Source: Actinomycetota bacterium
GTDB taxonomy: Bacteria; Actinomycetota; Thermoleophilia; Solirubrobacterales; Solirubrobacteraceae
Reading direction: 5' to 3'
Assembly: GCA_018268595.1 (NCBI GenBank)
Contig: JAFDWH010000004.1
Location: forward strand, 124,001-188,000
Length of the DNA: 64,000 bases
Both the position numbers and the translations under genes were made by a program. How positions within the stretch are numbered: the first letter of the stretch is position 1; the number at the start of each line of letters is the position of its first letter. Positions 63-22,475 of the stretch are shown piece after piece. The notes beneath the pieces are model-generated. The model was not told where the DNA came from and ran no database searches. It saw only the letters and a program-made list of their open reading frames with translations.

Positions 63-1589
63 TCAGCCGCGCGCTGCCAGAGCGGCGGCAGCGAGCGGTC
101 CGTTCGTTGCGTCCGCCCATCGCCCGAGGTCCGCGCCGGGCGGTCCGTACTCGAGCGCTTGGGCCTGCACCGCCGTCATCTCCTCGAACGCCTCGCGACC
201 GCTCTCGCGGCCGTAGCCGGACTGCTTGACGCCGCCGAACGGAAGCTGCCAGTGGAACGCGCGATAGCAGTTGATCCAAACCGAGCCGACCTCGAGCCTG
301 CCCGCGAGCCGCTCCGCGCGCGAGAGGTCGCTCGTCCACAACCCGGCCGCCAGCCCGTAGGCGGAGTCGTTGGCGATCTGCAGCGCCTCGTCCTCGCCGT
401 CGAAGGGCAGCACCACGCCGACCGGCCCGAAGATCTCCTCCTGGGAGATCTCCAGCGCGTTGTCGGCGTTCGTGACGACCGTCGGGCGGTAGAAGCAGCC
501 GCGCGCGAGGCGCTCGTCGTCCGGCGGCGCGCCGCCCGCCGCGATCGTCACGCCCTCGGCACGGGCGCGATCCACGAACCCCGCGACGCGCTCGCGCTGA
601 CGCGCGGACACGAGCGGTCCGATCATGGTCGCCTCGTCGAACGGGTCGCCGACGCGAAGGTCGTCCGCGATCGCGCACAGGCGCTCGACGAAGCCGTCGT
701 AGACCTCGCGCTGCACGAGCATGCGCGAGGGCGCGATGCAGCTCTGGCCGGCGGCGCCGAAGATCGCCGCGGCGGCCGACGACACGGCTTCGTCCAGCGC
801 GGCATCCGCGAACACGATGTACGGCGACTTGCCCCCGGCCTCGATCACGACGCGCTTCAGCGTGCGGGCAGCCGACGCGGCGATCTGGCGCCCGACGCCG
901 GTGCTCCCGGTGAACGAGACGAGCGCGACGTCCGGGTGCTCGACGAGCGCCTTGCCGACGGCGACGTCGCCGATCACGGCGTTGACGACGCCGTCGGGAA
1001 ATCCGGCCTCGGTGGCCAGGCGGGCGAGCGCGAACGGGGCGACGGGCGCGTCGGGCGACGGCTTGACGACGACCGTGTTGCCGGCCGCGAGCGCCGGAGC
1101 GATCTTCCAGCAGCCTGCCGAGACGGGCGAGTTGTACGGCGTCAGCGCCGCCACCACGCCGACCGGGCGATTGATCGTGAGGCCGCGCCGGCTCGACGAC
1201 AGCTCGAAGCTGCGGCCGCCCGACTCGCCCGCGAGGCCCGCGTAGTACGCGCACCAGTCGGCCATCGCCACCACCTCGTCGCGCGCCTGCCAGAGCGGCT
1301 TGCCGTTGTCGTGCGACTCGAGCGGCGCCAGCTCTGCGGCCCGCTCGCGCAGGAGCCCGGCGAAGCGGTGCAGGAGCTGCGCACGCTCGTCGGCGGACAG
1401 GCGCGCCCAGGCGCTGTCGCGGAAGGCTCGGCACGCAGAGGCGACCGCCTGCTCCACGGTCGCGGGCGTACCGTCGGCGACCATCGCCCAGGCCTCACCG
1501 GTCGCAGGGTCGATCGCCTCGCGGAAGCTCGCCTGCTCGACGACATGCGCACCGTCGATCCAGGCCCCGTAACGGACGGGTTCGTTCAT
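63..1589 (-). CDS. Aldehyde dehydrogenase (NAD(P)-dependent)
   Basis: The 508-residue protein has the usual length and all landmarks of the aldehyde dehydrogenase superfamily: the oxyanion-hole Asn in LTPYNSP (N153), the coenzyme segment VSFTGSTGVG (about 225-234), the general-base Glu in VIEAGGKSP (E250), and the nucleophile in GAAGQSC (C284). It should oxidise an aldehyde to its carboxylic acid in the cytoplasm. The ATG at 1589 is 28 bases after the amidohydrolase stop, so the two are probably co-transcribed. This is the second such enzyme in the operon and is clearly different in sequence from the one at 2505-4010. The substrate cannot be read from the sequence. A semialdehyde from a degraded ring or side chain is plausible from the neighbours. 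Confidence 0.93.
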   Translation of the reverse strand: MNEPVRYGAWIDGAHVVEQASFREAIDPATGEAWAMVADGTPATVEQAVASACRAFRDSAWARLSADERAQLLHRFAGLLRERAAELAPLESHDNGKPLWQARDEVVAMADWCAYYAGLAGESGGRSFELSSSRRGLTINRPVGVVAALTPYNSPVSAGCWKIAPALAAGNTVVVKPSPDAPVAPFALARLATEAGFPDGVVNAVIGDVAVGKALVEHPDVALVSFTGSTGVGRQIAASAARTLKRVVIEAGGKSPYIVFADAALDEAVSSAAAAIFGAAGQSCIAPSRMLVQREVYDGFVERLCAIADDLRVGDPFDEATMIGPLVSARQRERVAGFVDRARAEGVTIAAGGAPPDDERLARGCFYRPTVVTNADNALEISQEEIFGPVGVVLPFDGEDEALQIANDSAYGLAAGLWTSDLSRAERLAGRLEVGSVWINCYRAFHWQLPFGGVKQSGYGRESGREAFEEMTAVQAQALEYGPPGADLGRWADATNGPLAAAALAARG

Positions 1590-1617: not shown

Positions 1618-2502
1618 TCAGGCTCCCTGCACGGCCGGGAGCCGCAGGCCGGCGAGCGACAACGGACGCCGGTAGACGATCCCCTCGATGACTTCCTCGG
1701 AGATCTCCGGGAGCCGTCCCTCCGTGAGGGTGTTGATGTCTCGCAGCGCGGACAGGCAGAACGTCGGATGCAGAACCGGGAAGTCGGTTCCGAACAGCAC
1801 GCGATCGAGCACGCCGTAGTCGCGAGCGGCCAGCAGCATGTTGTGCAGCTGCCAGGGGCGATGGAACCGTGCGGAGATGTCCATCAGGACGTTCGGGTTC
1901 TTGTACATGAGCGCGATCGTCTCCGTGAACCACGGCTGGCCTCCGTGGGCGACGATCAACGTCAGCTCCGGGAAGCTGCGGGCGACCTTGTCGAGCAGCA
2001 CCGGATTGGCGTACTCGAGCACGCCTTCAGGCAGGAAGACCCCGCCTTGGTGCCACATCACGGGAATCCCGAGGTCGGCCGCCGTCTCGAGGACGCGCCA
2101 CGACTCCGCCGAGTGCGGATGAACGCCCTGGTACGGCGGGGACAGCTTCAGGCCCCGCAGCCCGAGCGTCTCGATCGCATAGCGCAACTCGTCGACGGCC
2201 GTAGCGTCGCCGGGATCGACGCTCGCGAAGCCGAGCGTGTCGTGCGGGCGCCGCTGCACGTACTCGGCGACGTGCTCGTTGGGGAACGCCATGTCATGTC
2301 GCGAGCATTTCAACGCGATGACCACCGCGACGTCGATGCCCGACGTGGCCCGCGCCTCGTCGAGGTCGTCGAACGTCGCCCCGCTGACCGCGGACGAGTC
2401 CCCGCCATAGCGGCGCGCCAGCCCGGCGGACCAGATCGGCCCCGGGTGCTCGGGCAGGAAGGTGTGCATGTGCCAATCGATCAGCAAGCGCTCGTCGGAC
2501 AC
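1618..2502 (-). CDS. Amidohydrolase family 2 metal-dependent hydrolase
   Basis: This 294-residue protein resembles the TIM-barrel amidohydrolase-2 family, which includes ACMSD-type decarboxylases and lactone hydrolases. It opens with the metal-binding HxH in DWHMHTFLPEH. Further likely ligands are the His in LIVAHGGQP and the Asp in LFGTDFP. I chose the GTG at 2502 because AGGAGG lies 6 bases upstream and the HxH motif then sits about 10 residues from the N terminus, as is usual. The start is 2 bases after the stop of the second aldehyde dehydrogenase, which indicates tight coupling. In this operon it could hydrolyse or decarboxylate a ring-cleavage or lactone intermediate; the reaction is inferred. 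Confidence 0.87.
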   Translation of the reverse strand: MSDERLLIDWHMHTFLPEHPGPIWSAGLARRYGGDSSAVSGATFDDLDEARATSGIDVAVVIALKCSRHDMAFPNEHVAEYVQRRPHDTLGFASVDPGDATAVDELRYAIETLGLRGLKLSPPYQGVHPHSAESWRVLETAADLGIPVMWHQGGVFLPEGVLEYANPVLLDKVARSFPELTLIVAHGGQPWFTETIALMYKNPNVLMDISARFHRPWQLHNMLLAARDYGVLDRVLFGTDFPVLHPTFCLSALRDINTLTEGRLPEISEEVIEGIVYRRPLSLAGLRLPAVQGA

Positions 2503-2504
2503 CG

Positions 2505-4010
2505 CTACCTCCTCATGACCAACGCGTCGGCAGGGGCGTCGTCGCTCAGATCGAGCCAGACAGTCTTGACGCGGGTGTACTCGGCGATCGACTCCTGGCC
2601 GCTCTCCTTGCCGTAGCCGCTGGCCTTGAACCCGCCGAACGGGGTGGTCGGAGACAGCGCCCGGTAGGTGTTGACCCAGACGGTTCCGGCGTCCAACCGG
2701 TGCGCCATCCGATGAGCGCGCGACAGGCTGGTCGTCCAGACGCCGGCCGCCAGGCCGAACAGGGAGTCGTTGGCGGCCGCCACGACGTCGTCGTCGTCGT
2801 CGAACGGCATGACGGCGAGCACGGGCCCGAAGACCTCCTCGCGCGCGAGTCGGCTGTCGTTTCGCACGCCTTCGAAGATGGTCGGCTCGACGAAGTACCC
2901 GTCTGCGAGATCCCCGTCGACCGCACGCGCGCCGCCCACGCGCACCGTGCCGCCGTCGTGACGTCCGACGTCGATGTACTCCAGGACGCGCGCCATCTGA
3001 CCCTCGAACGCGACGGGGCCGATGTCGGTGTCCTCGCTCAAGGGGTCGCCCAGGCGCATCCGACGGGTGCGCTCCTCCAACCGCGAGAGGACCTCGTCGT
3101 AGATCGGGCGCTGCACGAAGGCGCGCGAGCCGGCGACGCAGGTCTGTCCGCACGCGGCGAAGATCCCGGCTACCAACCCGGGCAGAGCGCGGTCGAGGTC
3201 CGCGTCGGCGAAGACGATGTTCGGGGACTTTCCGCCAAGCTCCAGCACGGATCGGATCGGACGGTCCGCGGCGATTCGCGCGATCGCCCGCCCCGTCTCG
3301 GTGCCCCCCGTGAACGTGATCAGGTCGACGTCGGGATGGGCGACCAGCGCGTGACCGGCCGACGAGCCGGCCCCGGTCACGACGTTCACGACGCCCGCCG
3401 GAAGACCGGCCTCCTCCAGGATCGCGACGAACTCCATCATCGACGCCGTCGTGTGCTCCGACGGCTTCACCACGACCGTGTTGCCCGTCGCGAGCGCCGG
3501 CGCGATCTTGGTGCTCGCGATCGCAAGCGGCGAGTTCCACGGCACGACGACGGCGACCACGCCGACGGGCTCGCGCCGCAAGTAGGTCAGCGTCGCCGGG
3601 TCCGTGGGGACCACGCTTCCGTGAACCTTGTCGGCCCACCCGGCGTAGTACTCCCAGAGGCTCGGCAGCGCACGCATCTGCGCACGCATCTCCCGGATCA
3701 GCTTGCCGTTGTCGGTGGTCTCGAGGACGGCAAGCTGGTCGGCGCGACGGGCGACGCCGTCAGCAACCCGGCGCAGCAGGCGGGCGCGGTCGAGCGGCTT
3801 CATGTCGCGCCATTCGCGGGCGGACAGCGCCGCGCGGGCGCTGCGCACGGCGGCGTCGACGTCCTCCGCGCCTGCGTTGGCGAGCGTGTACCAGGGCCGT
3901 CCCGTCGCCGGGTTGACGCTCGTCATCGTCTCCCCGGTCCGCGCCTGGACGTGCTGGCCGTCGATGTACAGTCCATACGCGGTCCCGGGCTCTTGCTGCG
4001 TTGCGCTCAT
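2505..4010 (-). CDS. Aldehyde dehydrogenase (second copy in operon)
   Basis: This is a full-length, 501-residue aldehyde dehydrogenase with the Asn of VVPWNSP (N159), the TFTGGTETG coenzyme loop (about 232-240), the catalytic Glu in LELGGKSP (E257) and the nucleophile in ACGQTC (C291). The ATG at 4010 overlaps the flavin reductase stop by 4 bases (ATGA), with AAAGGTG just upstream, so this start is well supported. It shares the fold but not close sequence with the enzyme at 63-1589, so the two probably take different aldehydes of one pathway. Cytoplasmic NAD(P)-dependent oxidation is known for the family; the substrate here is not. Confidence 0.93.
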   Translation of the reverse strand: MSATQQEPGTAYGLYIDGQHVQARTGETMTSVNPATGRPWYTLANAGAEDVDAAVRSARAALSAREWRDMKPLDRARLLRRVADGVARRADQLAVLETTDNGKLIREMRAQMRALPSLWEYYAGWADKVHGSVVPTDPATLTYLRREPVGVVAVVVPWNSPLAIASTKIAPALATGNTVVVKPSEHTTASMMEFVAILEEAGLPAGVVNVVTGAGSSAGHALVAHPDVDLITFTGGTETGRAIARIAADRPIRSVLELGGKSPNIVFADADLDRALPGLVAGIFAACGQTCVAGSRAFVQRPIYDEVLSRLEERTRRMRLGDPLSEDTDIGPVAFEGQMARVLEYIDVGRHDGGTVRVGGARAVDGDLADGYFVEPTIFEGVRNDSRLAREEVFGPVLAVMPFDDDDDVVAAANDSLFGLAAGVWTTSLSRAHRMAHRLDAGTVWVNTYRALSPTTPFGGFKASGYGKESGQESIAEYTRVKTVWLDLSDDAPADALVMRR

Positions 4011-4585
4011 GGGGCACCTTTCTCGGCGGTCGATCCGCGATCGCCTGGGAATGGGTCGCTTGATCCGCCGCAGGACGAGGGCGTGCCGGCTGGTGAAGCT
4101 GGCAGCCATCCGGTCGAGTCGAAGAACTTCCCGTCGAGGTAGACCAGCGGCGGTCGATCGCTGGCGTCGCACGACACCACCTCGCCGATCAGCACGAAGT
4201 GCGTCGCGGCGAGCGCGATCGTCGTCGGTCTCACCTCGAAGTGCGCGCTGGCGCCGTCCAGCAACGGCGCGCCGCATGCCCCGAGACGCCATTCCAGGTG
4301 CGCGAACTTGTCGTTCTCGCGCCCGGCGAAGGTCCGCGCCACAGGCTCCTGGTCGGCTGCCAGCAGGTTGATGCCGATGCTCGTCGCGCGCACCAGCGCC
4401 TCGCAGCTGCGCGACGCTCTCGAGACGCACACGAGCACCGTCGGAGGCTCCAGCGACACGCTGCAGAACGCGTTGACCGCCAATCCCTTCGGCTGGTCGT
4501 GCGCCATCGTCGTGACGACGGTGACGCCGGTCGGGAACGTCCGGTGCGCTGCACGAACGACGGCTGGGTCGAGCGATCCCGTCAT
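4007..4585 (-). CDS. Flavin reductase (HpaC/DIM6-NTAB family)
   Basis: The 192-residue protein has the pattern of short-chain flavin reductases: an N-terminal FPTGVTVVTT segment, then GLAVNAFCSVSLEPP (flavin-binding loop), CVSRASRS, and FAGRENDKF. Such proteins use NAD(P)H to make reduced FMN/FAD for a separate flavin-dependent monooxygenase. The ATG at 4585 overlaps the SnoaL-like gene stop by 4 bases, and its own stop overlaps the next aldehyde dehydrogenase start by 4 bases. No complete monooxygenase is visible in this window, so its partner may lie beyond the left edge. The C-terminal 25 residues are Gly/Ser/Pro-rich and look unstructured. Confidence 0.88.
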   Translation of the reverse strand: MTGSLDPAVVRAAHRTFPTGVTVVTTMAHDQPKGLAVNAFCSVSLEPPTVLVCVSRASRSCEALVRATSIGINLLAADQEPVARTFAGRENDKFAHLEWRLGACGAPLLDGASAHFEVRPTTIALAATHFVLIGEVVSCDASDRPPLVYLDGKFFDSTGWLPASPAGTPSSCGGSSDPFPGDRGSTAEKGAP

Positions 4586-5001
4586 CGCGCGGTGACGGTG
4601 ATGATGTCGAGTGCGGCGAGCATCTCGCGGGGATCCCAGGTCACCCACTCCTCGACGATGCGCCGAGCGCGGATGCTGGCGATCGAGATGCCGTTGACGA
4701 CGATCTTGCGGCCGGTGCCCGGCACACCCAAGTACTCCCGCTCGTGCGTCCCGGTGCTCGTCCAGCGGATCGCGAGGCGATCGTCCTGGCCGAAGATGTC
4801 GTCCACCACCGCCACCACGCCCGGGAAGGCATGGCGCAGGGCCTGAATGCGCAGCTTGAGCTCGTCCAGGCCGATCGAGCCGCCGTTGCCCTCGTGTCGG
4901 ACGTACTCCGGTGCGAACACGCGATCGAGCGCGGCGACGTCGCCGACGTTCCAGGCGCGGGCCCAGCCCTCGATGATCCACTCGTACTGATCGTGCCTCA
5001 T
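4582..5001 (-). CDS. SnoaL-like / NTF2-fold protein
   Basis: This small 139-residue protein starts with a helix (YEWIIEGWARAWNVGD) followed by DRVFAPEYVRHEG, the typical opening of SnoaL-like polyketide-cyclase and ester-cyclase relatives. Conserved features include the FPGVVAVVDDIFGQDDRLAIRW strand pair region and a GVPGTGRKI turn. The family folds as an alpha+beta barrel cone and contains hydrolases, isomerases, cyclases and non-enzymatic ligand binders. The ATG at 5001 follows the upstream gene by 19 bases, and the stop overlaps the flavin reductase ATG. A small-molecule isomerase or hydrolase role in the pathway is a guess from context. Confidence 0.82.
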   Translation of the reverse strand: MRHDQYEWIIEGWARAWNVGDVAALDRVFAPEYVRHEGNGGSIGLDELKLRIQALRHAFPGVVAVVDDIFGQDDRLAIRWTSTGTHEREYLGVPGTGRKIVVNGISIASIRARRIVEEWVTWDPREMLAALDIITVTAR

Positions 5002-5020: not shown

Positions 5021-5575
5021 TCATGCCTCGTCGGGTCGGAAGGCCGCAAGGCGCGCGTGGGGCCGGCCGCCGGTCGAGCCCGCGAGACCGATGAGGATCT
5101 CGTCGGGATGCGGCGCGTCGGGGATGCGAACCTCGAGCGTCTGGTGATGCGAGCGGACCGTCGCGTCCGTGATGTGCTTGAGCGGCACGTCGAAGACCGT
5201 GCCTTCGCCGCCTCGCTTCTCGACCGCCGGCAGCAGCGTGGTGGCGTCGACGGCATCGCGCAGGTGGTTGCCGAACCGCAGCGTGTGCAGCAGCCCCGAC
5301 GCGTGCTCGACGTCCCCGTTGAGGCCGACGACGCCTGCCTTCCCGTACGCCTCGACCTGCGCGGGCAGAGCGTCCACGAGGCGCGGCGCCAGGAGCGCCC
5401 CCAGCTCGGGGGCGACCTGCTCGATCACCGGTCCGAGGTCCTCGACGAAGCCTTGGCCCGCCCACGGGTTGGCGATCACCGCGCCCACGAACGCCAGGTG
5501 AATCGGGGCGGCGAGGTCCCGGTCACCCTCTTGATTGACTTCCTCGACGATCGTCACGAGCTTGCGCACGTTCAT
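5021..5575 (-). CDS. Amino acid synthesis family protein (DUF1185)
   Basis: The 184-residue protein begins M-N-V-R-K-L-V-T-I-V-E-E-V and continues with NPWAGQGFVEDL and the conserved KHITDATVRSHHQTLEVRIPDAPHPDEI region. I recognise this as the amino-acid-synthesis family (DUF1185, Pfam AA_synth), whose biochemical function is not established to my knowledge. These proteins often occur near flavin-dependent or amidohydrolase genes in catabolic operons. The ATG at 5575 is preferred over a TTG two codons earlier because GGAGGGG lies at good spacing before it. It follows the enoyl-CoA hydratase stop by 54 bases and is probably in the same transcript. Confidence 0.8.
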   Translation of the reverse strand: MNVRKLVTIVEEVNQEGDRDLAAPIHLAFVGAVIANPWAGQGFVEDLGPVIEQVAPELGALLAPRLVDALPAQVEAYGKAGVVGLNGDVEHASGLLHTLRFGNHLRDAVDATTLLPAVEKRGGEGTVFDVPLKHITDATVRSHHQTLEVRIPDAPHPDEILIGLAGSTGGRPHARLAAFRPDEA

Positions 5576-5629: not shown

Positions 5630-6472
5630 TCAGCCGCCCTCGGGCAGGTTTCCTGCGCCGGTCCACACCGGCGCCCGTTTCTCGGCGAAGGCCGTCAGGC
5701 CCTCGCGCGCATCGGCGCTCTGCGAGAGCATCGCGGCCAGGTCGAGCTCGATCGTGAGCGCCTCGGCCAGGGGCACGGCCTGGCCGCGACGCACGGCCGC
5801 CTTGATGAAGCGGACGGCCAGCGGTGCGCTCTGCGCGATCGCGTCCGCCAGCTCCATCGCCGCCCGCGGCAGCTCAGCGGACGGCACGACGCTGCTCACG
5901 AGCCCGACCCGAAGCGCCTCCTCGGCGGAGATCGACTCGCCGGTCATCAGCATCTCGAGCGCCTTCGACTCGCCGATCAAGCGCGGCAGCCGCTGCGTGC
6001 CGCCGCTGCCGGGCATGATGCCCCGCCGCGCCTCGGGAAGACCGAACTGCGAGGTGGTAGAGGCGATGCGAAAGTCGCAGCAGAGCGCGAGCTCCAGCCC
6101 GCCGCCCAGCGCATAGCCGTCGATCGCGGCGATCGTCGGCTTGCCGACGCGGGCGAGCGCATGGGCATCGCCCTCCTCGCCGTAGGACCGGCGCACGCCG
6201 ATCACGTCGCGGTCGTCCTCAGCAGCCTCCTTGATGTCCATGCCGACCGAGAAGGCGCGCCCGCCGGCGCCGCTCAGCACCGCGACCGTCACGCTGGGAT
6301 CCTCGTCGACCCAGCGAAAGGCATCGGCCAGCAGCTCGCGCAGGCGGCGGTTGCGCGCGTTGAGGACCTTCGGCCGGTTCATGGTGATGAACGCCACGCC
6401 GCCCCTCTTGTCGATTACGAGCTCATCCGACTCGGCCGCAACGCTTCTCTCTTGGGTCATGTCCTCACTCAT
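5630..6472 (-). CDS. Enoyl-CoA hydratase/isomerase (crotonase family)
   Basis: This 280-residue crotonase-fold protein has the CoA-binding/oxyanion segment AFSVGMDIKEA (about 73-83) and both catalytic glutamates of true hydratases: E127 in YALGGGLELAL and E147 in FGLPEARRG, followed by PGSGGTQRL. It should add water to a 2-enoyl-CoA. The ATG at 6472 overlaps the last base of the CaiB-type gene stop (TGATG), so translation is coupled to the CoA-transferase upstream. Keeping both Glu makes a hydratase more likely than a decarboxylase or dehalogenase of the same fold. Confidence 0.92.
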   Translation of the reverse strand: MSEDMTQERSVAAESDELVIDKRGGVAFITMNRPKVLNARNRRLRELLADAFRWVDEDPSVTVAVLSGAGGRAFSVGMDIKEAAEDDRDVIGVRRSYGEEGDAHALARVGKPTIAAIDGYALGGGLELALCCDFRIASTTSQFGLPEARRGIMPGSGGTQRLPRLIGESKALEMLMTGESISAEEALRVGLVSSVVPSAELPRAAMELADAIAQSAPLAVRFIKAAVRRGQAVPLAEALTIELDLAAMLSQSADAREGLTAFAEKRAPVWTGAGNLPEGG

Positions 6473-7686
6473 CACTTGACCACGTCCGTTTCCTGCCACT
6501 CCGCGAGCTGCTCCCGCGTGTAGCCCAGGAGGTCGCAGAACACGTGGGCGTTGTCGGCGCCCAGCTCCCGCATCGCCTCCGGTTCGTGGAGCTGCAGCTC
6601 CGCGAAGTGGATCGGGAGCGTCGCGACAGGGATCTCGCCGAAGGCGGCGTGCCGCGTCATGCGGACGAGCTCGCGCGTCCGCAGCTGCGGGTCGGCGTAG
6701 AGGTCCTCGGCCTTCTGCACTGCGCCGCACGGAACGGCCGCCGCCTGCAGGAGGCGCATCACCTCGTGCGCGTCGCGGCGGCTGGTCCACGCGGCCAAGA
6801 GCTCGTCGATCTCGTCGAGCCTGCCGCGCCGGGCGGCAAGCGTGGCGAAGCCCGCATCGGCCGCAAGCTCAGGCCGGCCGATCGCCTCGCACAGCCGCTG
6901 CCACTGCTCGTCGGTCTCGACCGCGATCACGCACCAGCGGTCGTCTCCCTCGCACGGGTAGCAGTTGTGCGGCGCCGCACCGGGCCAGTCGTTCCCGATG
7001 GGCTCCGGATCCCGCCCGTTGACCAGGCTGGTGGCATAGCTCACGCCCAGCAGGTACGCCACCATCTCCGCCTGAGCCAGCTCGAGGTACGCACCCTCGC
7101 CGCTCTTGCGCCGCCGCAGCAGCGCGGCCATGACCGCGGTCGGCGCGAGCGCCGCGGCCACGTAGTCGGGGTACGCGCCCTGAAATCCCACGGGACGGGG
7201 CTTGCCCGGGTGATTCCACAGATACGTCATGCCGGCGACCGCGTTGAGCGTCTGGCCCCAGGTTCCGTACCAGCTCTTCGGGCCGGTGCTGCCCATCCCG
7301 GGCATCTTCATGTAGATGAGATCGGGCTTCGCCTCGCGCAGAACGTCCAGCCCCAGCCCGAGTCGCGTCATCACGTCTGGGCGGAAGTTCTCGATGACGA
7401 CGTCCGACTTCGCGACGAGTTCCACGAACAGCCGCCGGGCGGTTTCGTTCTTGAGGTTGAGCTGCGCGCTCTTGACGTTCAGGTTGTTCTCGAGGAACCG
7501 GCCGGAGGCCTCGATGTCATCTCCGGTGGAGTAGAACCGGAAGCTGTCCAAGCCCCCGTTCAGCGACTCGAACTTGATCACCTCCGCGCCGCACTGAGCG
7601 AGGCAGCGCGATGCCGACGGCCCTGCCACGCCGGCGGTCAGCGCGAGCACGCGGATGCCTCTGAGGGGGGCCACGCCGGCCTGCAT
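6472..7686 (-). CDS. CaiB/BaiF family CoA-transferase, catalytic-type subunit
   Basis: This 404-residue class III CoA-transferase has the N-terminal GIRVLALTAGVAGPSASRCLAQCGAEVIKFE block typical of CaiB/BaiF. The family forms a glutamyl/aspartyl-CoA thioester on a conserved Asp placed before a short Ala-rich helix; here that Asp is present as D174 in AYPDYVAAALAPTAVMAAL. It moves CoA between carboxylic acids in the cytoplasm. Its start follows the stop of the partner CaiB gene directly, and the partner lacks the Asp, so the two may form a heteromer with one active subunit. The acyl donor and acceptor are unknown. Confidence 0.9.
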   Translation of the reverse strand: MQAGVAPLRGIRVLALTAGVAGPSASRCLAQCGAEVIKFESLNGGLDSFRFYSTGDDIEASGRFLENNLNVKSAQLNLKNETARRLFVELVAKSDVVIENFRPDVMTRLGLGLDVLREAKPDLIYMKMPGMGSTGPKSWYGTWGQTLNAVAGMTYLWNHPGKPRPVGFQGAYPDYVAAALAPTAVMAALLRRRKSGEGAYLELAQAEMVAYLLGVSYATSLVNGRDPEPIGNDWPGAAPHNCYPCEGDDRWCVIAVETDEQWQRLCEAIGRPELAADAGFATLAARRGRLDEIDELLAAWTSRRDAHEVMRLLQAAAVPCGAVQKAEDLYADPQLRTRELVRMTRHAAFGEIPVATLPIHFAELQLHEPEAMRELGADNAHVFCDLLGYTREQLAEWQETDVVK

Positions 7687-8861
7687 CAGCGACCTCCGTC
7701 CGTGACGAGTGACTCGATCTGCGACCGGCGCAACAGCTCCGCGGTGTGCTCGCCCAGCCGCGGAGCCGGACGCGCGGCGACGCGCTGCTCGTCGACGAGC
7801 ACCGGGAATCCCACCTGGCCTTCGCCGCCGGCGCCGCCGTTCGCCACCTGCTGCACCATCCCGCGCGCCTCGACCTGCTTGTCACGCGCGAACTCGCTCG
7901 GCGCGTTGACGGGCAGGCACGGAACGCCCTTGGACTGCATCAGGTGAGCCAGCTCCTCCTTGGCGAAGCGACTGGTGAACGCCGCGACGTCGGCGTTGAC
8001 CGCCTCGACGTGCTGACGCCGAACGGAATCGGGCTCCCACTGCGGATCGTCGTACTTCTCCGGATGGCCGTCCCACACCTCGAGCAACTTCGGCCAGTGC
8101 ACGCGGGACGCGAACAGGAAGACGAAGCCGTCGCTGGCGGGGAAGACGTTGGCCGGCGCCGCGAACGGATGCTGGCTGCCGTGTCGCTCGACGTTTCTCC
8201 CGGTCGATCCGAAGATGCGCAGCAGGTGCTCCTGCGTGGCCAGCGTCTCCTGGACGGAGACGTCGACGAGCTCGCCGTGACCGCGCTGCTCGCGCTCCCA
8301 CAGCGCGAGCAGGGTGCCGTAGGCGGCGTGCACGCACGCGTAGTAGAAGCCCTGCGTCTCCGGTGCGCACGTGGGCGCCTCGACGGGATTCCCCGCGACG
8401 TACATGAGGCCGCTCATCGCGAAGGCGACGAGGTGCGGCGCGAGGTACTCGCGGTAGGGCCCCTCCTGGCCGAAGCTCGTCACAGAGGTGACGACGAGCC
8501 CCGGATTGCGCTGCGACAGCACGTCGCGGCCGAGCCCTCTCCGCTCGAGCGTCCCCGGGTCAAAGCTCTCGAGCACCACGTCGGCGGACTCCACGAGACG
8601 CAGAAACGCCTCGCGCCCGTCGGGAGCGTCGAGGTCGAGCACGACGCTCGACTTGCCGGCGTTGAGGAAGCCGAACCGCAGACTCTCGTCCGGGCCCTCC
8701 TCATCGTTGCGGAACGGCCCCATCCGACGGACGGGATCGCCTTCGGGCGGCTCGATCTTGATGACCTCGGCACCGAGGTCGGCGAGCAGCTTGCCGGCGA
8801 ACTGACCGCGCAGGTCGGCGAGGTCGAGAACGACATAGCCCTCGAGCAGCCCAGTGAGCAC
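7686..8861 (-). CDS. CaiB/BaiF family CoA-transferase homologue lacking the catalytic Asp
   Basis: The 391-residue protein has the CaiB/BaiF opening (DLADLRGQFAGKLLADLGAEVIKIEPPEGDPVR) and the later ALW/GELVDVSVQE signature. Where the family has the Asp that carries the CoA intermediate, my alignment on the HAAYGTLLAL helix places F172, in TQGFYYACVHAAYG. It is therefore probably a non-catalytic or structural partner of the adjacent gene, as in known two-subunit CoA-transferases such as the benzylsuccinate enzyme. GTG at 8861 is the start. Its stop codon ends one base into the next gene's start region, so the pair should be made in equal amounts. Confidence 0.86.
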   Translation of the reverse strand: MLTGLLEGYVVLDLADLRGQFAGKLLADLGAEVIKIEPPEGDPVRRMGPFRNDEEGPDESLRFGFLNAGKSSVVLDLDAPDGREAFLRLVESADVVLESFDPGTLERRGLGRDVLSQRNPGLVVTSVTSFGQEGPYREYLAPHLVAFAMSGLMYVAGNPVEAPTCAPETQGFYYACVHAAYGTLLALWEREQRGHGELVDVSVQETLATQEHLLRIFGSTGRNVERHGSQHPFAAPANVFPASDGFVFLFASRVHWPKLLEVWDGHPEKYDDPQWEPDSVRRQHVEAVNADVAAFTSRFAKEELAHLMQSKGVPCLPVNAPSEFARDKQVEARGMVQQVANGGAGGEGQVGFPVLVDEQRVAARPAPRLGEHTAELLRRSQIESLVTDGGR

Positions 8862-8865
8862 CGCG

Positions 8866-10080
8866 TCACCGCGCTCCGTGCCGGATCAGGTTCCGAGCGA
8901 GCCGCCAGCGCAGCACCTCGGTCGTTCCCTCGGTGATCCGCAGGCTTCGGATCTGGCGGTAGAAGTACTCGAGCGGCAGCTCCGTCGTGAGGCCGATCCC
9001 TCCGAGGATCTGGATCGCCCGGTCGACGATTCTCGAGCCGACCTCGACGCAGTAGATCTTCGTCATGTAGGACTCGTTGCGGATGTCCTCGCCACGGTCG
9101 AAGCGCGCCGCCGTCTCGTAGAGCAACAGCCGTGCGGTGCGCAGCTCGATCGCGGAGTCGGCGATCATGAACTGGATCGCCTGGCGCTCCGACAGCGGTT
9201 GCCCGAACGTCGAGCGGTCGGTGACATACTCGATCGCGAGGTCGAGCGAGCGCTGCGCCACGCCGACCGCCCACGCGGCCTGGCTCGAGATGCGCGCGCC
9301 GGTGAGCGAGCGCTGCCCGATGGCGAAGCCCTCGCCCTCCTTTCCGAGCAGGTCCGCGGCTGGGACCCGCACGTCGTCGAAGCTGATGTCCGAGGGAACG
9401 TCACCCATCATCGTGGGCCAGCGCTGGCTGATCGACACGCCTGGCGATCTGAGGTCGACCATGAACGCGCTGATACCGCCGCGATCGGTCTTCTCCCGGT
9501 CGGTGCGGCAGAAGACAAGCGCGAAGTCGGACGTGTCGCCGTTGCTGATGAAGCGCTTCGTGCCGTTGAGGACGAAGTGGTCTCCGTCGCGCAGCGCCCG
9601 CGACTTCAACCCTGACGGGTCGGAGCCGAAGTCGGGCTCGCTCAGCGCGAAGCACATGCGCTTCTCGCCGCGCACGAGCGGCATGACGAAGCGCTCCTTC
9701 TGGTCCTCGTTGCACCCCTCGAGCAGCATGGCGTCGATGTACGGACCGAACACCTCGTTGTTGCGGTAGGGAAGCGCCTTGCTCTTGCCGAGCTCCTCCT
9801 GCACGATGCACTCCTCGAGCAGGCCGAGGCCCATCCCGCCCAGCTCTTGCGGGACGGTGAGCAGCCACAGGTCGAGCTTTCTCGCCTCTTCCTGAAGCGG
9901 GCGGACAATCTCGTCGGGGGCGCTCTCGCCCTCGGGCACCGTCATCTCGATCGGGATGAGGTACCGCTCCACGAACCCGCGCACGAGCTCGCGCAGCATC
10001 ACGATCTCGTCGGAGAGCTGGAAGCTGATGCCCGGTCCGTCCTCGACGGCGCCGCTCGCCTGCCCGGTCACAGCGCTCAC
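8866..10080 (-). CDS. Acyl-CoA dehydrogenase family protein
   Basis: The 404-residue flavoprotein follows the acyl-CoA dehydrogenase plan: an N-terminal helical domain, then FALSEPDFGSDPSGLKS (the FAD/substrate beta-domain), FVLNGTKRFISNGD, FDDVRVPAADLLG, and a C-terminal helical domain with FGQPLSERQAIQFMIAD and ITEGTTEVLRWRLARNLI. It should introduce a 2,3 double bond into an acyl-CoA and pass electrons to ETF. I chose the GTG at 10080 because it overlaps the DUF35 gene stop by 4 bases (GTGA) and gives the normal length. It feeds naturally into the hydratase encoded downstream. Confidence 0.92.
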   Translation of the reverse strand: MSAVTGQASGAVEDGPGISFQLSDEIVMLRELVRGFVERYLIPIEMTVPEGESAPDEIVRPLQEEARKLDLWLLTVPQELGGMGLGLLEECIVQEELGKSKALPYRNNEVFGPYIDAMLLEGCNEDQKERFVMPLVRGEKRMCFALSEPDFGSDPSGLKSRALRDGDHFVLNGTKRFISNGDTSDFALVFCRTDREKTDRGGISAFMVDLRSPGVSISQRWPTMMGDVPSDISFDDVRVPAADLLGKEGEGFAIGQRSLTGARISSQAAWAVGVAQRSLDLAIEYVTDRSTFGQPLSERQAIQFMIADSAIELRTARLLLYETAARFDRGEDIRNESYMTKIYCVEVGSRIVDRAIQILGGIGLTTELPLEYFYRQIRSLRITEGTTEVLRWRLARNLIRHGAR

Positions 10081-10511
10081 TGGTCCTTCACCGGCCGGAA
10101 CCGAGCCAAGGTGACGTCGTCGGTGACGTCGTCGTAGACGACCTCGACCTCCATGCCGATGCGCACGTCCTCGACCGGGCAGCCGATGACGTTCGTGCAC
10201 ACGCGCACGCCCTCGGCCAGCTCGACCAGCGAGATGTTGAACGGCATGTCCTCGGCGCTGAAGCTCGGAAGCGGCGGGTGGCTCTGCGTCGTGGTCCCCC
10301 AGACGGTTCCGCGACCGGAGACGCGGGTCCAGACGAGCGCGTCGGCGAGGCAGTTGGGGCACAGCGGCTTCGGCAGGAACGTGTACTCCCCGCATTCAGA
10401 GCACCGCTGAATCTCCATCGCGTGCCGCTTGAGGCTCTCCCAGTACGGCCGATCCTCAGGGTCCGCTTCGGGCAATGGCTTCGTGTAGGTCTCGTTCGTC
10501 TGCGTCGTCAT
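10077..10511 (-). CDS. Zn-ribbon/OB-fold (DUF35) acyl-CoA-binding partner protein
   Basis: This 144-residue protein has a rubredoxin-like zinc ribbon, CSECGEY...CPNC (about residues 37-54), after an N-terminal helix (RPYWESLKRHAMEIQ), followed by an OB-fold with GRGTVWGTTT and a C-terminal EVVYDDV strand. DUF35 proteins bind thiolase-superfamily enzymes of the SCP2/Ltp branch and are needed for their activity, as in the ChsH2-Ltp2 aldolase of steroid degradation. It sits 10 bases downstream of the thiolase-like gene, as expected for such a pair, and its stop overlaps the next start by 4 bases. Confidence 0.9.
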   Translation of the reverse strand: MTTQTNETYTKPLPEADPEDRPYWESLKRHAMEIQRCSECGEYTFLPKPLCPNCLADALVWTRVSGRGTVWGTTTQSHPPLPSFSAEDMPFNISLVELAEGVRVCTNVIGCPVEDVRIGMEVEVVYDDVTDDVTLARFRPVKDQ

Positions 10512-10521
10512 GCTCGGCTCC

Positions 10522-11715
10522 TCAGTTCCGGCGGTTGCTCAGGATGAGCGTGGCGTGCGTCGAGAGGTTTCCGCCGTGCCCGCTCACGATGCCGACCTCT
10601 GCGCCCTCCACCTGTCGCTCCGGCTCCACGTCGTCGCCGCGCAGCTGCCGCACCGCCTCGTTCACGTGCGTGATGCCCTCGAGGTGACCGTGGGAAAGCA
10701 GGCCGCCGTGCGTGTTGACCGGCAGCTCGCCGCCGAGCTCGATGCGGCCTCCCTGCACCCAGGCGCCCCCGTCCCCCTTGGAGCAGAAGCCGTAGTCCTC
10801 AAGCGTGATGAGGGTCGTGATGGTGAAGCAGTCGTAGATCTGGGCGAAGTCCATGTCGCCCGGACCGACGCCGGCCATCTTGTATGCGGTCTCGGAGGAC
10901 ACCTTGCCGCCGAGCGTCGTGAGCGTCTTGGCGTCGACCAGCTGGGCGTGCGGGTTGTTCGATCCGAAGCCCATGATGTATGCCGGGGGCTTCCTGAGGT
11001 CCTTTGCGCGATCGGCCGACGTCACGATGAACGCACCGCCGCCGTCGGACACGAGTGAGCAGTCCATGAGGCGCAGGGGCGCGACGATGAACCGCGAGTT
11101 CTGGTGGTCCTCGAGCGTCATCGGCCGGCCGTACATCGTCGCCGTCGGGGTGAGGTTGGCGTGCTTGCGCGTGGACACCGCGATCGCGCCGAGCTGCTCG
11201 GAGGTGGTGCCGTACTCGTGCATGTGTCGAGAGGCGGCGAACGCGTGGTGACCCGGGCCGACCATGAACCCGTAGGGCTGCTCGTAGTCCTCCGCTCCGT
11301 CGCGGATGCCGCCGTTCGCCTCGCGCGTGGTGCCGACGCCGTTCTTCGGCAGGAGGTGAAGTGAAGCCTGGTTGCGGCCGTGGACGCACATGACGGTGGT
11401 GGCAAGCCCCGCCTCGATGGCCATCGCCGCGTGGATGGCCATCGCGACGGGCGTCGCGCCTCCCAGGGCCAGGTCCGTCGTATAGCGGGGGGTGATGCCC
11501 ATAGCGTGGGCGACCACCACTGAGTAGGTGCGGAACGGATCGTGCAGCGGCTGGTTCGTCAGCAGGCCGTCGATCTGCGAGGCCTTGAGTCCCGCGTCGT
11601 CCAAGGCGTGCTTGGCCGCTTCGACGTGCAGCGTCAGCGTCCCGACGTTCGGCAGCTTGCCGATTCTCGTCTCACCGACGCCGACGATCGCGCATTTCCC
11701 GCGAAGACTTGTCAT
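10522..11715 (-). CDS. Thiolase-superfamily protein (SCP2/Ltp branch), nucleophilic Cys absent
   Basis: The 397-residue protein matches the SCP2-type thiolase branch: AIVGVGETRIGKLP at the N terminus, YDCFTITTLITLEDYGFC, LPVNTHGGLLSHGHLEG, and GIVSGHGGNLSTHATLIL. At the usual active-site Cys position (about 84) it reads DLALGGATPV, with no Cys. Members of this branch that lack the Cys and pair with a DUF35 protein act as retro-aldolases on 3-hydroxyacyl-CoAs, so aldolase activity is likelier than thiolysis; that is inference. The ATG at 11715 is the first gene after an intergenic region with a candidate promoter and the shared TCATACAG site, so it probably leads the long operon. Confidence 0.88.
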   Translation of the reverse strand: MTSLRGKCAIVGVGETRIGKLPNVGTLTLHVEAAKHALDDAGLKASQIDGLLTNQPLHDPFRTYSVVVAHAMGITPRYTTDLALGGATPVAMAIHAAMAIEAGLATTVMCVHGRNQASLHLLPKNGVGTTREANGGIRDGAEDYEQPYGFMVGPGHHAFAASRHMHEYGTTSEQLGAIAVSTRKHANLTPTATMYGRPMTLEDHQNSRFIVAPLRLMDCSLVSDGGGAFIVTSADRAKDLRKPPAYIMGFGSNNPHAQLVDAKTLTTLGGKVSSETAYKMAGVGPGDMDFAQIYDCFTITTLITLEDYGFCSKGDGGAWVQGGRIELGGELPVNTHGGLLSHGHLEGITHVNEAVRQLRGDDVEPERQVEGAEVGIVSGHGGNLSTHATLILSNRRN

Positions 11716-12083: not shown

Positions 12084-12896
12084 TCAGGCGGTTCCGGCCC
12101 CGTACTCGTAGATCGCGATCCCCTCGGACGTCTCGGCGCCGTCGGAGAGCGTGAAGCGGACCGGCGTCTGGCGGACCAGCGTCTCGATCTCCGCCGTCTT
12201 GATCAGGCAGTCGGCGGGCTCAGCGATCGGCTCGAAGCGCGCCTCGTACTCGCCGCCGTCGGGCGTGTCCGCACGAACGAGCCCGCGGGCGTGATGCGTG
12301 CGCGTGACGTCGGCTTCGAACAGCTTGCCGTCGCGAGGCAGGATCCGGAAGTAGTTGTACTTGAGGAAGGCGAAGCACGCGTCGGCGGTCCAGAGCGAGT
12401 AGGAGCGATCGCTGGCGTAGCCCTGCAGGAACAGCCAGTGCCAGTGGCGCGGCGGCTCCGGATACATGTACCGCTTCATGAACCCGATCGCGGGCGACGT
12501 CTTGCCGTCGTAGGTAACCGTGCAATCGAGGTCGGGGTGATAGAAGGTCTCGGTCGTCTGACCCTCCAACTGGCGGTCCGCGTCCTTCCTGGTCTTCACC
12601 TCGAAGTCGACGTGCAGGCCGCCCGGGCCGTCGACGTCCAGCGAGCCGCCGCCCGTCTCGTCCGTAACGATGTGAAACCCGGGGCTGTGCATGCTGAGCG
12701 ACGCCCCCTCGGCCTGTTCGGAGAACGCCTCTCGGCGATGGATCGTCCGCGTGCCGTCTCTGTCGGACACCCACGCCCAATGCACTTCAGTCAGCGCCGT
12801 CTTGACGACGCGGACCCCGAACACGCGATCGTCGTCGCAGAAGAAGTGATATTGGAGGCCGTCGTTGCCGAACCGACCCTGCAAAGGCTGAAGCAT
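12084..12896 (-). CDS. Conserved-looking protein of unknown function (270 aa)
   Basis: I do not recognise this family. The protein is rich in Trp/Tyr/Phe and alternating beta-type segments (HWHWLFLQGYASDRSYSLW; FLKYNYFRILPRDGKLFEADV), which suggests an all-beta barrel like lipocalin or hydroxyneurosporene-synthase relatives, but that is a weak impression. No signal peptide or membrane segment is seen. I chose the ATG at 12896 because CAGGAG lies 6 bases upstream; a longer frame to 12992 would overlap nothing useful and has a low-quality N terminus. It lies between the GntR gene (74 bases upstream) and the catabolic operon, so it may be part of the same pathway. Confidence 0.72.
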   Translation of the reverse strand: MLQPLQGRFGNDGLQYHFFCDDDRVFGVRVVKTALTEVHWAWVSDRDGTRTIHRREAFSEQAEGASLSMHSPGFHIVTDETGGGSLDVDGPGGLHVDFEVKTRKDADRQLEGQTTETFYHPDLDCTVTYDGKTSPAIGFMKRYMYPEPPRHWHWLFLQGYASDRSYSLWTADACFAFLKYNYFRILPRDGKLFEADVTRTHHARGLVRADTPDGGEYEARFEPIAEPADCLIKTAEIETLVRQTPVRFTLSDGAETSEGIAIYEYGAGTA

Positions 12897-12969
12897 TCCA
12901 TCTCCTGTTGTGAAGCATTGACCAGCACGCCGCGGCGGAACGCCCGGCGGCGACAAGGCGACGTCGGCG

Positions 12970-13701
12970 TCAGCGCTTCCCGTCCGACCCATCGAAGTGC
13001 ATCCCTTCCGACGCCAGCATCTCTTTCAGCACGCGTCCCGCGCTCTCCACGTGCTCTCGGCAGCGGCGCTCGGCGAGATCCGCGTCACGCCGGCGAATGG
13101 CCTCCATCACGGCCTCCAACTCCTTACACGACTCCTCGGGACGGCCCGGTCGGCGCAGCGTCCGCGTCCGCAGCTGCCGCACACGCGTCTCGATCGTGGC
13201 GCCCAAGTCGCGCAGGACCCGGTTTCCCGCCCCGCGGAAGAGCACTTCGTAGAACTCGTCCTTCGCGACGAGCGAGGTGGCGGACGTCCCCGTCTGCGCC
13301 AACTCGGTGACGTGCGACAACGCAGTCGCGAGCTGTTCCAGGAGGCTGTCCGGCGCGTTCTCGACGAACAGGCGAGCCGCCAGACCCTCGAGCGACGCGC
13401 GCACCTGATAGAGGTCGACGACATCCTCCGGCGCCAGCGCCGTCACGACCACGCCCTTGCCCGGCACGCTCGACACGAGCCGTTCGGCTTCGAGCTCTCG
13501 CAGCGCCTCGCGCACAGTCGTCCGGCTCACGCCGAACTGCTCACACAACTCGTGCTCGACGAGTCGTGTGTTGGGGGCAATCGTCCCCTCGGCGATGGCA
13601 CTGCGGAGAAGGTCCAGCACCTGCTGCCGCGCCGGTGCGGATTGGCGTGTGATTGAGCCGAACACCGGCTTCGAGTCTGCACTTGCGTCCATGGTCTCCA
13701 T
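12970..13701 (-). CDS. GntR-family transcriptional regulator (FCD domain)
   Basis: This 243-residue regulator has an N-terminal winged helix (about 22-88: LRSAIAEGTIAPNTRLVEHELCEQFGVSRTTVREALRELEAERLVSSVPGKGVVV) and a C-terminal all-helical FCD ligand domain with the usual DLYQVRASLEGLAARL opening and the HVTEL...DEFYEVLFRGAGNRVL metal/ligand-site region. FCD regulators usually repress catabolic genes until an organic acid binds. It stands between the transporter and catabolic operons on the same strand. It is the obvious candidate to bind the TCATACAG-type sites found before three of the surrounding transcription units. ATG at 13701, or the ATG three codons later, could start it. Confidence 0.92.
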   Translation of the reverse strand: METMDASADSKPVFGSITRQSAPARQQVLDLLRSAIAEGTIAPNTRLVEHELCEQFGVSRTTVREALRELEAERLVSSVPGKGVVVTALAPEDVVDLYQVRASLEGLAARLFVENAPDSLLEQLATALSHVTELAQTGTSATSLVAKDEFYEVLFRGAGNRVLRDLGATIETRVRQLRTRTLRRPGRPEESCKELEAVMEAIRRRDADLAERRCREHVESAGRVLKEMLASEGMHFDGSDGKR

Positions 13702-21474: not shown

Positions 21475-21876
21475 CTAATCGCCGTCGGCGAGGACGCCAC
21501 GAGCCCACGCGAGCGCCTGCTCGGCGCTGCGCAGGCTCGCGTGTCGATCCAGGTCGTCGGGCACCGGCGGATCGTCGTCGCGGAACTCCGCCGACCACGG
21601 CGTCAACCACCGCGCTTCCACGACGAAATCCGGGATGCGGACGCCATCGCGATCGGCCAACTCCAACAGAAAGCCGAGGTCGTGCGTGCGCGGGAACTGC
21701 ACGCCGTGAATCGCAGGCACGGCCTTCATCGCCTTCTCGATCGCCTGCTGCGCGTGGAAGCCGATCGCGTCGTCGGCGATTGACGGGTTGTCGCTCAGCG
21801 CACGTACGACCTCCACGTCGCCCTCGGCCTTCCGCAGCAGCAGCGCAGCGAACTCGCGCTCCTCAGGACTCGGCAA
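21475..21876 (-). CDS. HEPN-domain protein (putative toxin-like partner of MNT)
   Basis: This 133-residue helical protein has the HEPN pattern: a first helix pair, then GFHAQQAIEKAMKAV (39-53), FPRTHDLGFLLELAD (61-75) and a C-terminal helix with ALAWARGVL. The strict RX4-6H ribonuclease motif of toxic HEPN proteins is not obvious. I chose the TTG at 21876 because it aligns residue for residue with the start of the second HEPN protein at 60261, also TTG, and GAGGGG lies 7 bases upstream. It overlaps the MNT gene by 14 bases. With the MNT protein it may form a HepT-MntA-like pair, known in other bacteria as toxin-antitoxin; toxicity here is not shown. Confidence 0.82.
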   Translation of the reverse strand: MPSPEEREFAALLLRKAEGDVEVVRALSDNPSIADDAIGFHAQQAIEKAMKAVPAIHGVQFPRTHDLGFLLELADRDGVRIPDFVVEARWLTPWSAEFRDDDPPVPDDLDRHASLRSAEQALAWARGVLADGD

Positions 21877-22180
21877 CGAGCCGCCCCTCGCGCAACGCGG
21901 TGTAGACCAGCGAACCCGGAACGTCACGACGACGCCGAACGAGATCGTCGCTCATCACGATCACGTCCACCGGCACGCCCAGGGGTGGCAGAGCGTCGCG
22001 CAGCCGAACCCACTCCGCAACAGTCGGCTCGGCGCCTCGCTCGACCACGAGGAAGTCCAGATCGCTATCCGCCGTCGCGTCTCCGCGTGCGTGAGACCCA
22101 AACAGAAAGACCTGCGCCGGCGCCGCAGCTTCGTCAGCGAGCGTGCCCCCGGCCCGCTCGATCACGTCGCCGCTGAGCAC
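21863..22180 (-). CDS. Minimal nucleotidyltransferase (MNT/MntA-like)
   Basis: This 105-residue protein carries the nucleotidyltransferase motif GSHARGDATADSDLD (28-42), with the two metal-binding Asp at 40 and 42 and the third likely Asp in GVPVDVIV. Family members can transfer AMP to a HEPN partner. The GTG at 22180 matches the start and the exact 105-residue length of the second copy (60248-60565). The gene starts about 155 bases beyond the tRNA-Tyr 3' end and overlaps the HEPN gene by 14 bases. A much longer open frame through the tRNA is not real coding. Confidence 0.85.
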   Translation of the reverse strand: MLSGDVIERAGGTLADEAAAPAQVFLFGSHARGDATADSDLDFLVVERGAEPTVAEWVRLRDALPPLGVPVDVIVMSDDLVRRRRDVPGSLVYTALREGRLVAES

Positions 22181-22335
22181 GAGAAAACCGTAGCCGAGTC
22201 GGCGGCGCAGCCGCGGTGCATCCGGGTCGTCATGCGACCGCCTTTTCGGCGTTGATCTGGAGGATGTTCCGGTCAGCCAGGCACTTGACAGCGCGGTCCT
22301 CAAGCGATCGCGCTCCAATCCAATACACCAAATAG

Positions 22336-22417
22336 TGGGGGGAGCAGGATTCGAACCTGCGTAGGCAGAGCCAACGGGTTTACAGCCCGTCTCCTTTAAC
22401 CACTCGGACATCCCCCC
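22336..22417 (-). tRNA. tRNA-Tyr (anticodon GTA)
   Basis: Read on the minus strand, this 82-nt sequence folds as a class II tRNA: 7-bp acceptor stem GGGGGGA/TCCCCCC, anticodon loop CTGTAAA with GTA, a long variable arm, and the T-arm GCAGG-TTCGAAT-CCTGC. The discriminator base is A, and CCA is not encoded (ACTATT follows). It lies upstream of the first MNT-HEPN module, and part of its 3' end is repeated near 21396. Confidence 0.96.
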
Positions 22418-22475
22418 GAGCAGGAGCGGAAGCATAGCGGCCCCGCGCGCGCGGGCGCGGGGCCGCAAGCGACGT

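Follow-up and report, generated by a model that had tools for sequence, protein, structure and literature searches.

Several proteins with the thiolase fold act as aldolases alongside a DUF35 partner. The Sal-Shy aldolase of Comamonas testosteroni (CtSal, 9MYR) acts on bile acids and Ltp2-ChsH2 of Thermomonospora curvata (TcLtp2, 6OK1) on steroids. In CtSal, the Tyr and Cys of a YDC motif, proposed to serve as base and acid respectively, are both essential, as the Y302F mutant retained only trace activity and C304A, C304S and C304H had none detectable (PMC12329534); the same article relays findings that Tyr294 is the base and Tyr344 the acid in TcLtp2. A third pair, IpfD and IpfE of the ibuprofen degradation plasmid pIBU218, comprises a thiolase-fold protein and an OB-fold partner that serve in the cleavage of a coenzyme A (CoA) ester (PMC9195938). 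Here we describe two adjacent genes in a 64,000 nucleotide stretch of DNA, the window, from a genome of the Solirubrobacteraceae (Actinomycetota; assembly GCA_018268595.1, 3.57 Mb in 31 contigs; contig JAFDWH010000004.1, positions 124,001 to 188,000). Judging from their sequences and a structural model, their products very probably form an acyl-CoA retro-aldolase, a C-C lyase, rather than an acetyltransferase or thiolase:

10522..11715, minus strand: thiolase-fold protein without the nucleophilic Cys (397 aa; hereafter the query), proposed retro-aldolase with Gly86, Tyr294-Asp-Cys296-Phe and His344
10077..10511, minus strand: DUF35 partner, zinc ribbon plus OB fold (144 aa), following the aldolase gene after a 10-base gap

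Both reading frames are uninterrupted on translation. A sequence-only reading had claimed that the catalytic Cys of thiolases is missing from the motif LALGGAT, and alignment to Ltp2, Sal and thiolases bore this out: the motif spans residues 82-88 and places Gly86 in the nucleophile column of the multiple alignment, which is occupied by Cys in the thiolases 6ESQ and 7YVY and by Gly in TcLtp2, CtSal (Gly89), IpfD and 4U4E, a putative thiolase of Sphaerobacter thermophilus whose title gives no function. The C-terminal motif IVSGHGGN is also free of Cys, in a region which we take to be the site of the second Cys of classical thiolases. Tyr294 aligns with TcLtp2 Tyr294 and CtSal Tyr302, at a position where 6ESQ and 7YVY have His. 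In the column of Cys296, CtSal (Cys304) and 6ESQ also have Cys, TcLtp2 has His, 4U4E has Ser, and IpfD and 7YVY have Ala; His344 corresponds to TcLtp2 Tyr344, CtSal Gln352 and the His of 6ESQ, 7YVY and 4U4E. The query therefore differs from 6ESQ, with its HDCF and GH motifs, at two of four positions, through the replacement of Cys by Gly and of His by Tyr. As far as aligned residues can tell, its closest catalytic match is the Tyr/Cys pair of Sal, found in both within a YDC(Y/F) motif, and not the two Tyr of Ltp2, whose motif reads YDHF. The residues contacting CoA in CtSal, Arg216 and Lys19, are represented by Arg208 and Lys20, and Gly86, Tyr294 and Asp295 are invariant in a set of 26 sequences that includes the query.

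Gly86 and Tyr294 change together, as a coupled switch. Among 84 aligned rows, which include the query, the references and some near-duplicates, 77 combine Gly86 with Tyr294, four have Cys86, none of them with Tyr294, and three fall into neither class. Similarly, the 91 focal loci of another set comprised 66 of the Gly/Tyr type, 19 of the Cys/His type, in that every Cys-type locus carries His at position 294 (19/19), and six kept out of both groups (L116, with Ser/His, and L137, L022, L033, L041 and L049). The counts in these two sets indicate a pairing beyond chance; since the Gly/Tyr and Cys rows were picked by similarity searches, they are not population frequencies. All 19 Cys loci came from a search of the window's phylum for the BbsB family, from which 20 stretches were taken, and the Gly/Tyr loci were gathered by similarity to the query, with 20 stretches likewise taken, except for the window and the ibuprofen plasmid, the latter retrieved under its accession number.

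The two types also keep different company. A DUF35 gene lies within 6 kb on the same strand at 62 of the 66 Gly/Tyr loci, versus six of the 19 Cys loci; under the same rule, a hydratase is found at 27/66 versus 1/19, a CoA-transferase at 19/66 versus 0/19, and an acyl-CoA dehydrogenase at 21/66 versus 7/19. Neighbours were detected with iterated hidden Markov models, those for DUF35 and others being seeded from the window's own proteins, and some focal loci end at contig edges.

Comparison with solved structures points the same way. By sequence, the query matches 4U4E at 300 bits, TcLtp2 at 228 and CtSal at 220, with the best Cys thiolase at 146. An AlphaFold2 model built from 26 sequences (pLDDT 89.9, pTM 0.92, residues 125-143 poorly predicted) was aligned by VIA-align to Ltp2 6OK1 with a Z score of 54.7 (372 residues, 2.3 A), to Sal 9MYR with 54.6 (382 residues, 2.5 A), to 4U4E with 53.4 (354 residues, 1.5 A) and to the best Cys thiolase with 51.5, and Foldseek ranked 4U4E, 6OK1 and 9MYR in that order. 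Function is not readable from the common fold alone.

In a tree of 76 rows, which was pruned of short fragments, the duplicate L051 and eight almost identical rows and was flagged for long branches, including those of the divergent Cys rows L019 and L023, the four Cys-type rows split off from the remainder with support of 100/99. The query groups with five proteins from Alphaproteobacteria, Binatia and Deltaproteobacteria/Myxococcota (L004-L008; support 100/100), apart from CtSal, TcLtp2, IpfD and 4U4E. This clade sits within a 44-row group (100/99) that also holds TcLtp2 and IpfD, with CtSal and 4U4E outside it. All six clade members, the query included, have His157 where CtSal has Tyr165; the only other rows with this residue are L009 and a Martelella protein, making eight of 85 rows in total, one being a duplicate. 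On these alignments, the query clade is best described as new within an otherwise known kind of enzyme, its active site mixing apparent features of Sal and of thiolases; a literature search, conducted mostly outside subscription journals, returned no paper recognised as describing this clade or its benzylsuccinate-like setting. Of the solved proteins outside the clade, 4U4E shares the Gly/Tyr pair and a His at position 344, and differs from the query in that its YDSF motif offers no Cys as acid.

The zinc-ribbon/OB-fold neighbour of the sequence-only reading proved to be a DUF35 protein with matches to PF01796 (OB_ChsH2_C, 2.3e-20) and PF12172 (zf-ChsH2, 1.2e-9), most similar among solved structures to the partners of Sal (108 bits) and Ltp2 (75 bits). 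Its zinc Cys pattern, C37-x2-C40-x10-C51-x2-C54, recurs in all of the aligned partners but one (10/11), the exception being the presumed IpfE (L080 13231-13626, minus strand), in which the four zinc-ribbon Cys columns are lost. Such a C4 pattern is described for ChsH2, whereas Shy has a C3H1 DUF35 domain fused to MaoC (PMC12329534); the query's partner is of the C4 type and stands alone. With no nucleophilic Cys, Tyr294 and Cys296 in place, a DUF35 partner, and Ltp2 and Sal among the top structural matches, the retro-aldolase proposed by the sequence-only reading is supported by sequence and model.

The acyl-CoA dehydrogenase, enoyl-CoA hydratase and two aldehyde dehydrogenases (ALDH) named in the same reading all lie downstream of the pair on the same strand. 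They belong to a tightly packed run of minus-strand genes that begins with the thiolase-like gene and, within the window, ends with ALDH1, the successive gaps from aldolase to hydratase being 10, -4, 4, -1 and -4 bases; the regulator upstream of the run is listed with them:

12970..13701, minus strand: GntR/FCD regulator, upstream of the aldolase gene
8866..10080, minus strand: acyl-CoA dehydrogenase, with a GTG start overlapping the DUF35 stop by 4 bases
7686..8861, minus strand: CoAT1, class III CoA-transferase like chain A of benzylsuccinate CoA-transferase
6472..7686, minus strand: CoAT2, class III CoA-transferase like chain B of benzylsuccinate CoA-transferase
5630..6475, minus strand: enoyl-CoA hydratase, with both of what we take to be its catalytic Glu motifs present
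5021..5575, minus strand: PF06684 'amino acid synthesis' family protein (Pfam)
4582..5001, minus strand: SnoaL-like protein
4007..4585, minus strand: flavin reductase, with ATG at 4585
2505..4010, minus strand: aldehyde dehydrogenase ALDH2
1618..2502, minus strand: amidohydrolase family 2, with a likely GTG start at 2502
63..1589, minus strand: aldehyde dehydrogenase ALDH1

The two CoA-transferases resemble different subunits of benzylsuccinate CoA-transferase, CoAT1 matching 9fn0_A at 184 bits and 9fn0_B at 110, and CoAT2 matching 9fn0_B at 190 and 9fn0_A at 60. An Asp of CoAT2 and chain B, presumably the catalytic one in class III CoA-transferases, sits at a position where CoAT1 has Phe and where chain A, by alignment with CoAT1, also has no Asp. 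Asp likewise faces Phe or Tyr in the Variovorax pair L076 and in the two CoA-transferase pairs encoded on the Binatia contig L006. With acyl-CoA dehydrogenase and enoyl-CoA hydratase abbreviated as ACAD and ECH, the strand of L006 that does not encode its aldolase reads ACAD-CoAT1-CoAT2 in one place and CoAT1-CoAT2-ECH in another, and Neobacillus (L011) has ACAD-ECH-CoAT-CoAT-aldolase-DUF35, an order repeated in Psychrobacillus (L048) with one CoA-transferase showing. Both Neobacillus CoA-transferases have the Asp, and so do not form an asymmetric pair of the benzylsuccinate type.

Benzylsuccinate is oxidised by BbsEF, BbsG, BbsH, BbsCD and BbsAB in sequence (PMC10818641). The window holds counterparts of BbsEF, BbsG and BbsH together with a DUF35/thiolase-fold pair, and by analogy the operon resembles this β-oxidation module with the alcohol dehydrogenase removed and the thiolase replaced by a putative aldolase. 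Unlike the Bbs pathway, it has a Gly86 protein instead of the Cys thiolase BbsB, and family scans of the operon genes, which covered CoAT1 through NCBIfam and the PDB only, found no 3-hydroxyacyl-CoA dehydrogenase, whether a BbsCD-like short-chain dehydrogenase/reductase (SDR) or 3HCDH. Family scans of the cluster's genes also recognised no steroid gene, which, together with the benzylsuccinate-type CoA-transferase pair, points to a non-steroid acid as the substrate. Anaerobic use of toluene was considered and is unlikely, since the genome encodes no PFL-like protein (PF02901), which we take to represent the benzylsuccinate synthase superfamily. The neighbours of the relatives vary, with hydantoinase, class II aldolase, TauD and various transporters appearing in a Pfam tally of 84 neighbours at eight loci, which covers the 25 commonest of 96 families such that a lone SDR would not appear; open reading frames (ORFs) resembling UbiD, M81 and thiamine diphosphate (ThDP) enzymes by eye are also found near relatives. 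As these neighbourhoods differ, synteny does not name a substrate.

The case for an acyl-CoA retro-aldolase combines sequence, residues, phylogeny, predicted fold and gene order, from which we infer the catalytic steps, the complex with DUF35 and the order of the pathway. An organic acid would receive CoA through CoAT1 and CoAT2 and be converted by the acyl-CoA dehydrogenase to a 2-enoyl-CoA, and the hydratase would add water to yield a 3-hydroxyacyl-CoA, whose C2-C3 bond would be cut directly by the aldolase. Tyr294 would remove the proton of the 3-hydroxyl, with the breakage of the C-C bond freeing an aldehyde (or ketone). Since Gln161 of Sal is not kept, His344 and the backbone of Gly382 are proposed to hold the acyl-CoA enolate in the style of a thiolase until its protonation by Cys296 gives the shorter acyl-CoA. 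DUF35 would complete the binding cleft, and an aldehyde dehydrogenase of the operon would oxidise the released aldehyde.

It is possible, if on balance doubtful, that the operon is specifically an aldolytic module of the benzylsuccinate type. The BbsEF-like transferase would charge a 2-substituted succinate or branched acid from succinyl-CoA, and dehydrogenation and hydration would then lead to a 2-(hydroxyalkyl)succinyl-CoA that is split into an aldehyde and succinyl-CoA; the freed succinyl-CoA would recharge the next substrate, so neither an alcohol dehydrogenase nor free CoA would be needed. The clade's site, composed of Tyr294, Cys296 and His344 with the shared His157, would then represent a third catalytic solution beside those of Ltp2 and Sal.

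A number of observations weigh against retro-aldol cleavage by such a pathway. The residues that form the oxyanion hole or activate the Cys in Sal are lost, as Gln161, Gln347 and Gln352 are replaced by Gly153, Leu339 and His344, and hence the mechanism of Sal cannot be transferred whole. Thiolases trail the aldolases by just ~3 Z units in VIA-align. An SDR gene lies close by in L121 and L122, which are of the same family, have the ACAD-ECH-CoAT-aldolase-DUF35 set and carry Gly in the His344 column, so absence of the dehydrogenase is not universal. Furthermore, 7/19 of the Gly/Tyr loci sampled in the window's class and genus have an SDR or HAD gene nearby, versus 9/19 of the Cys loci from its phylum (Fisher p=0.74). 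A pooled comparison gave 10/66 Gly/Tyr versus 9/19 Cys loci (p=0.0096), a difference that is gone with the class and genus loci alone; the HAD model is weak, coming from a single seed found by motif. An earlier tblastn search with weak probes, superseded by the iterated models, found SDR at 3/52 and HAD at 1/52 loci.

Several chemistries are accommodated by the thiolase fold, the PhlC acyltransferases among the VIA-align matches included, and the query could be another Cys-less CoA enzyme that performs no retro-aldol cleavage, such as a decarboxylase or a hydrolytic C-C lyase, as was once suggested for the SLP of T. brucei. That protein contains YDCF and slowly decarboxylates malonyl-CoA, but CtSal, which has the same Tyr/Cys pair, is described as unable to do so (PMC12329534), and the hydratase of the operon would yield the substrate of a retro-aldolase and not a 3-keto acid; such an activity is therefore improbable. 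Less probable again is an IpfD-like reaction, in which acyl-CoA would be cleaved from a hydroxylated ring carbon of an aryl-cis-diol CoA ester to leave a catechol. Ibuprofen breakdown includes a retro-aldolase cleavage to propionyl-CoA and 4-isobutylcatechol (PMC9195938), and the presumed IpfD is a Gly/Tyr protein beside an OB-fold protein in the same 44-row clade as the query. However, IpfD occupies a separate branch, reads YDAF with Tyr at position 344, has a partner without the zinc Cys and acts on a ring diol (PMC9195938), and scans of genes in the window's cluster revealed no ring-hydroxylating dioxygenase, whereas dioxygenase subunits adjoin ipfD. The same plasmid carries a second, Ltp2-like unit (L080 938-2502, minus strand; YDHF/Tyr) with an OB-fold protein, an enoyl-CoA hydratase and a CoA-transferase; the words lipid-transfer, enoyl-CoA and CoA-transferase are absent from the main text of PMC9195938.

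There is very little to recommend a steroid side-chain aldolase, that is, Ltp2 or Sal proper. Its attractions are the sequence and fold matches and one KshA_C match in the query's own genome (76 bits, above the Pfam cut-off), which leaves room for steroid degradation encoded elsewhere in that genome; against these stand the query's separation from both enzymes in the tree, its free-standing C4 partner, unlike Shy, and the BbsEF-like CoA-transferases alongside in a cluster with no recognised steroid gene. A true thiolase with another nucleophile is just as remote, as the names of curated models, the retained His344 and a Cys296 shared with 6ESQ are outweighed by Gly86 at the nucleophile position and Tyr in place of the His of HDCF, where SCP2-type and archaeal DUF35 thiolases have a nucleophilic Cys and HD(C/A)F, and by the coupling of Gly and Tyr across relatives.

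The putative retro-aldolase gene has its closest relatives far from its host. A contig scan of genomes, which may omit very near records, yielded 46 loci, led by metagenome-assembled genomes (MAGs) of Alphaproteobacteria (76% identity) and Mesorhizobium (73%), followed by Myxococcales (66%), Binatia (60%) and Deltaproteobacteria (58%). In a sample of 299 genomes from the window's class, 45% identity was seen for the best-scoring other match, and 47% was the highest full-length identity among the matches listed; six other genomes of the window's genus gave best full-length matches of 44-46%. That relatives are closer in distant groups than in the organism's own class and genus makes horizontal transfer of the aldolase gene likely, on the sequences compared. 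The organism itself has a second Cys-less thiolase-fold protein with a DUF35 neighbour (contig C31, L051 12020-13195, minus strand), 39% identical to the query, with YDSF and NHP motifs and adjoining ORFs that resemble, by eye, an SDR and a CoA ligase. Among the other proteins, L041 reads ISDHF, with Ser at the position of the catalytic Tyr, and an Ltp2-like gene from a MAG labelled Klebsiella pneumoniae (L034 10001-11167) is near-identical to genes of the gammaproteobacterial MAGs L037 and L041, making the label doubtful.

Upstream of the aldolase gene, on the same strand, are genes for an Opp/Dpp-type transporter and the GntR/FCD regulator, whose position makes it the likely controller of the cluster. 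Adjoining the latter is a 302-aa ORF (12084-12992, minus strand), lipocalin-like by eye only, with no NCBIfam or Pfam family and a best PDB-sequence match at E 0.35. The gene run is concluded by a luciferase-like flavin monooxygenase (PF00296; L050 18884-19987, minus strand), located immediately before base 1 of the window on the same strand; it and the flavin reductase may be partners, which would introduce an oxygenation step into the cluster. A PF06684 protein and a flavin-reductase-like ORF are also found at L004 3884-5031, ~5-6 kb upstream of the closest relative of the aldolase, a recurrence that suggests a functional link. Further along the window, two adjacent minus-strand ORFs (21475-21927 and 21863-22468) appear by eye to encode a HEPN protein and a minimal nucleotidyltransferase, presuming GSxARG...DxD to be the motif of the latter, and are a possible toxin-antitoxin pair.

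Thiolase-fold proteins of the Gly/Tyr type were found here in many bacterial groups, and the members found to have a published function are only the steroid and ibuprofen enzymes. The curated models nearest to the query are named acetyl-CoA acetyltransferase or lipid-transfer protein, the best being PRK06158 at 357 bits, under its cut-off of 421 bits; the replacement of Cys86 by Gly and of His294 by Tyr offers a simple test by which such proteins can be re-annotated as probable C-C lyases. If the proposed function is true, the query clade would show aldolytic β-oxidation to be a more general route that proceeds without an alcohol dehydrogenase, and would provide new aldolases for biocatalysis.

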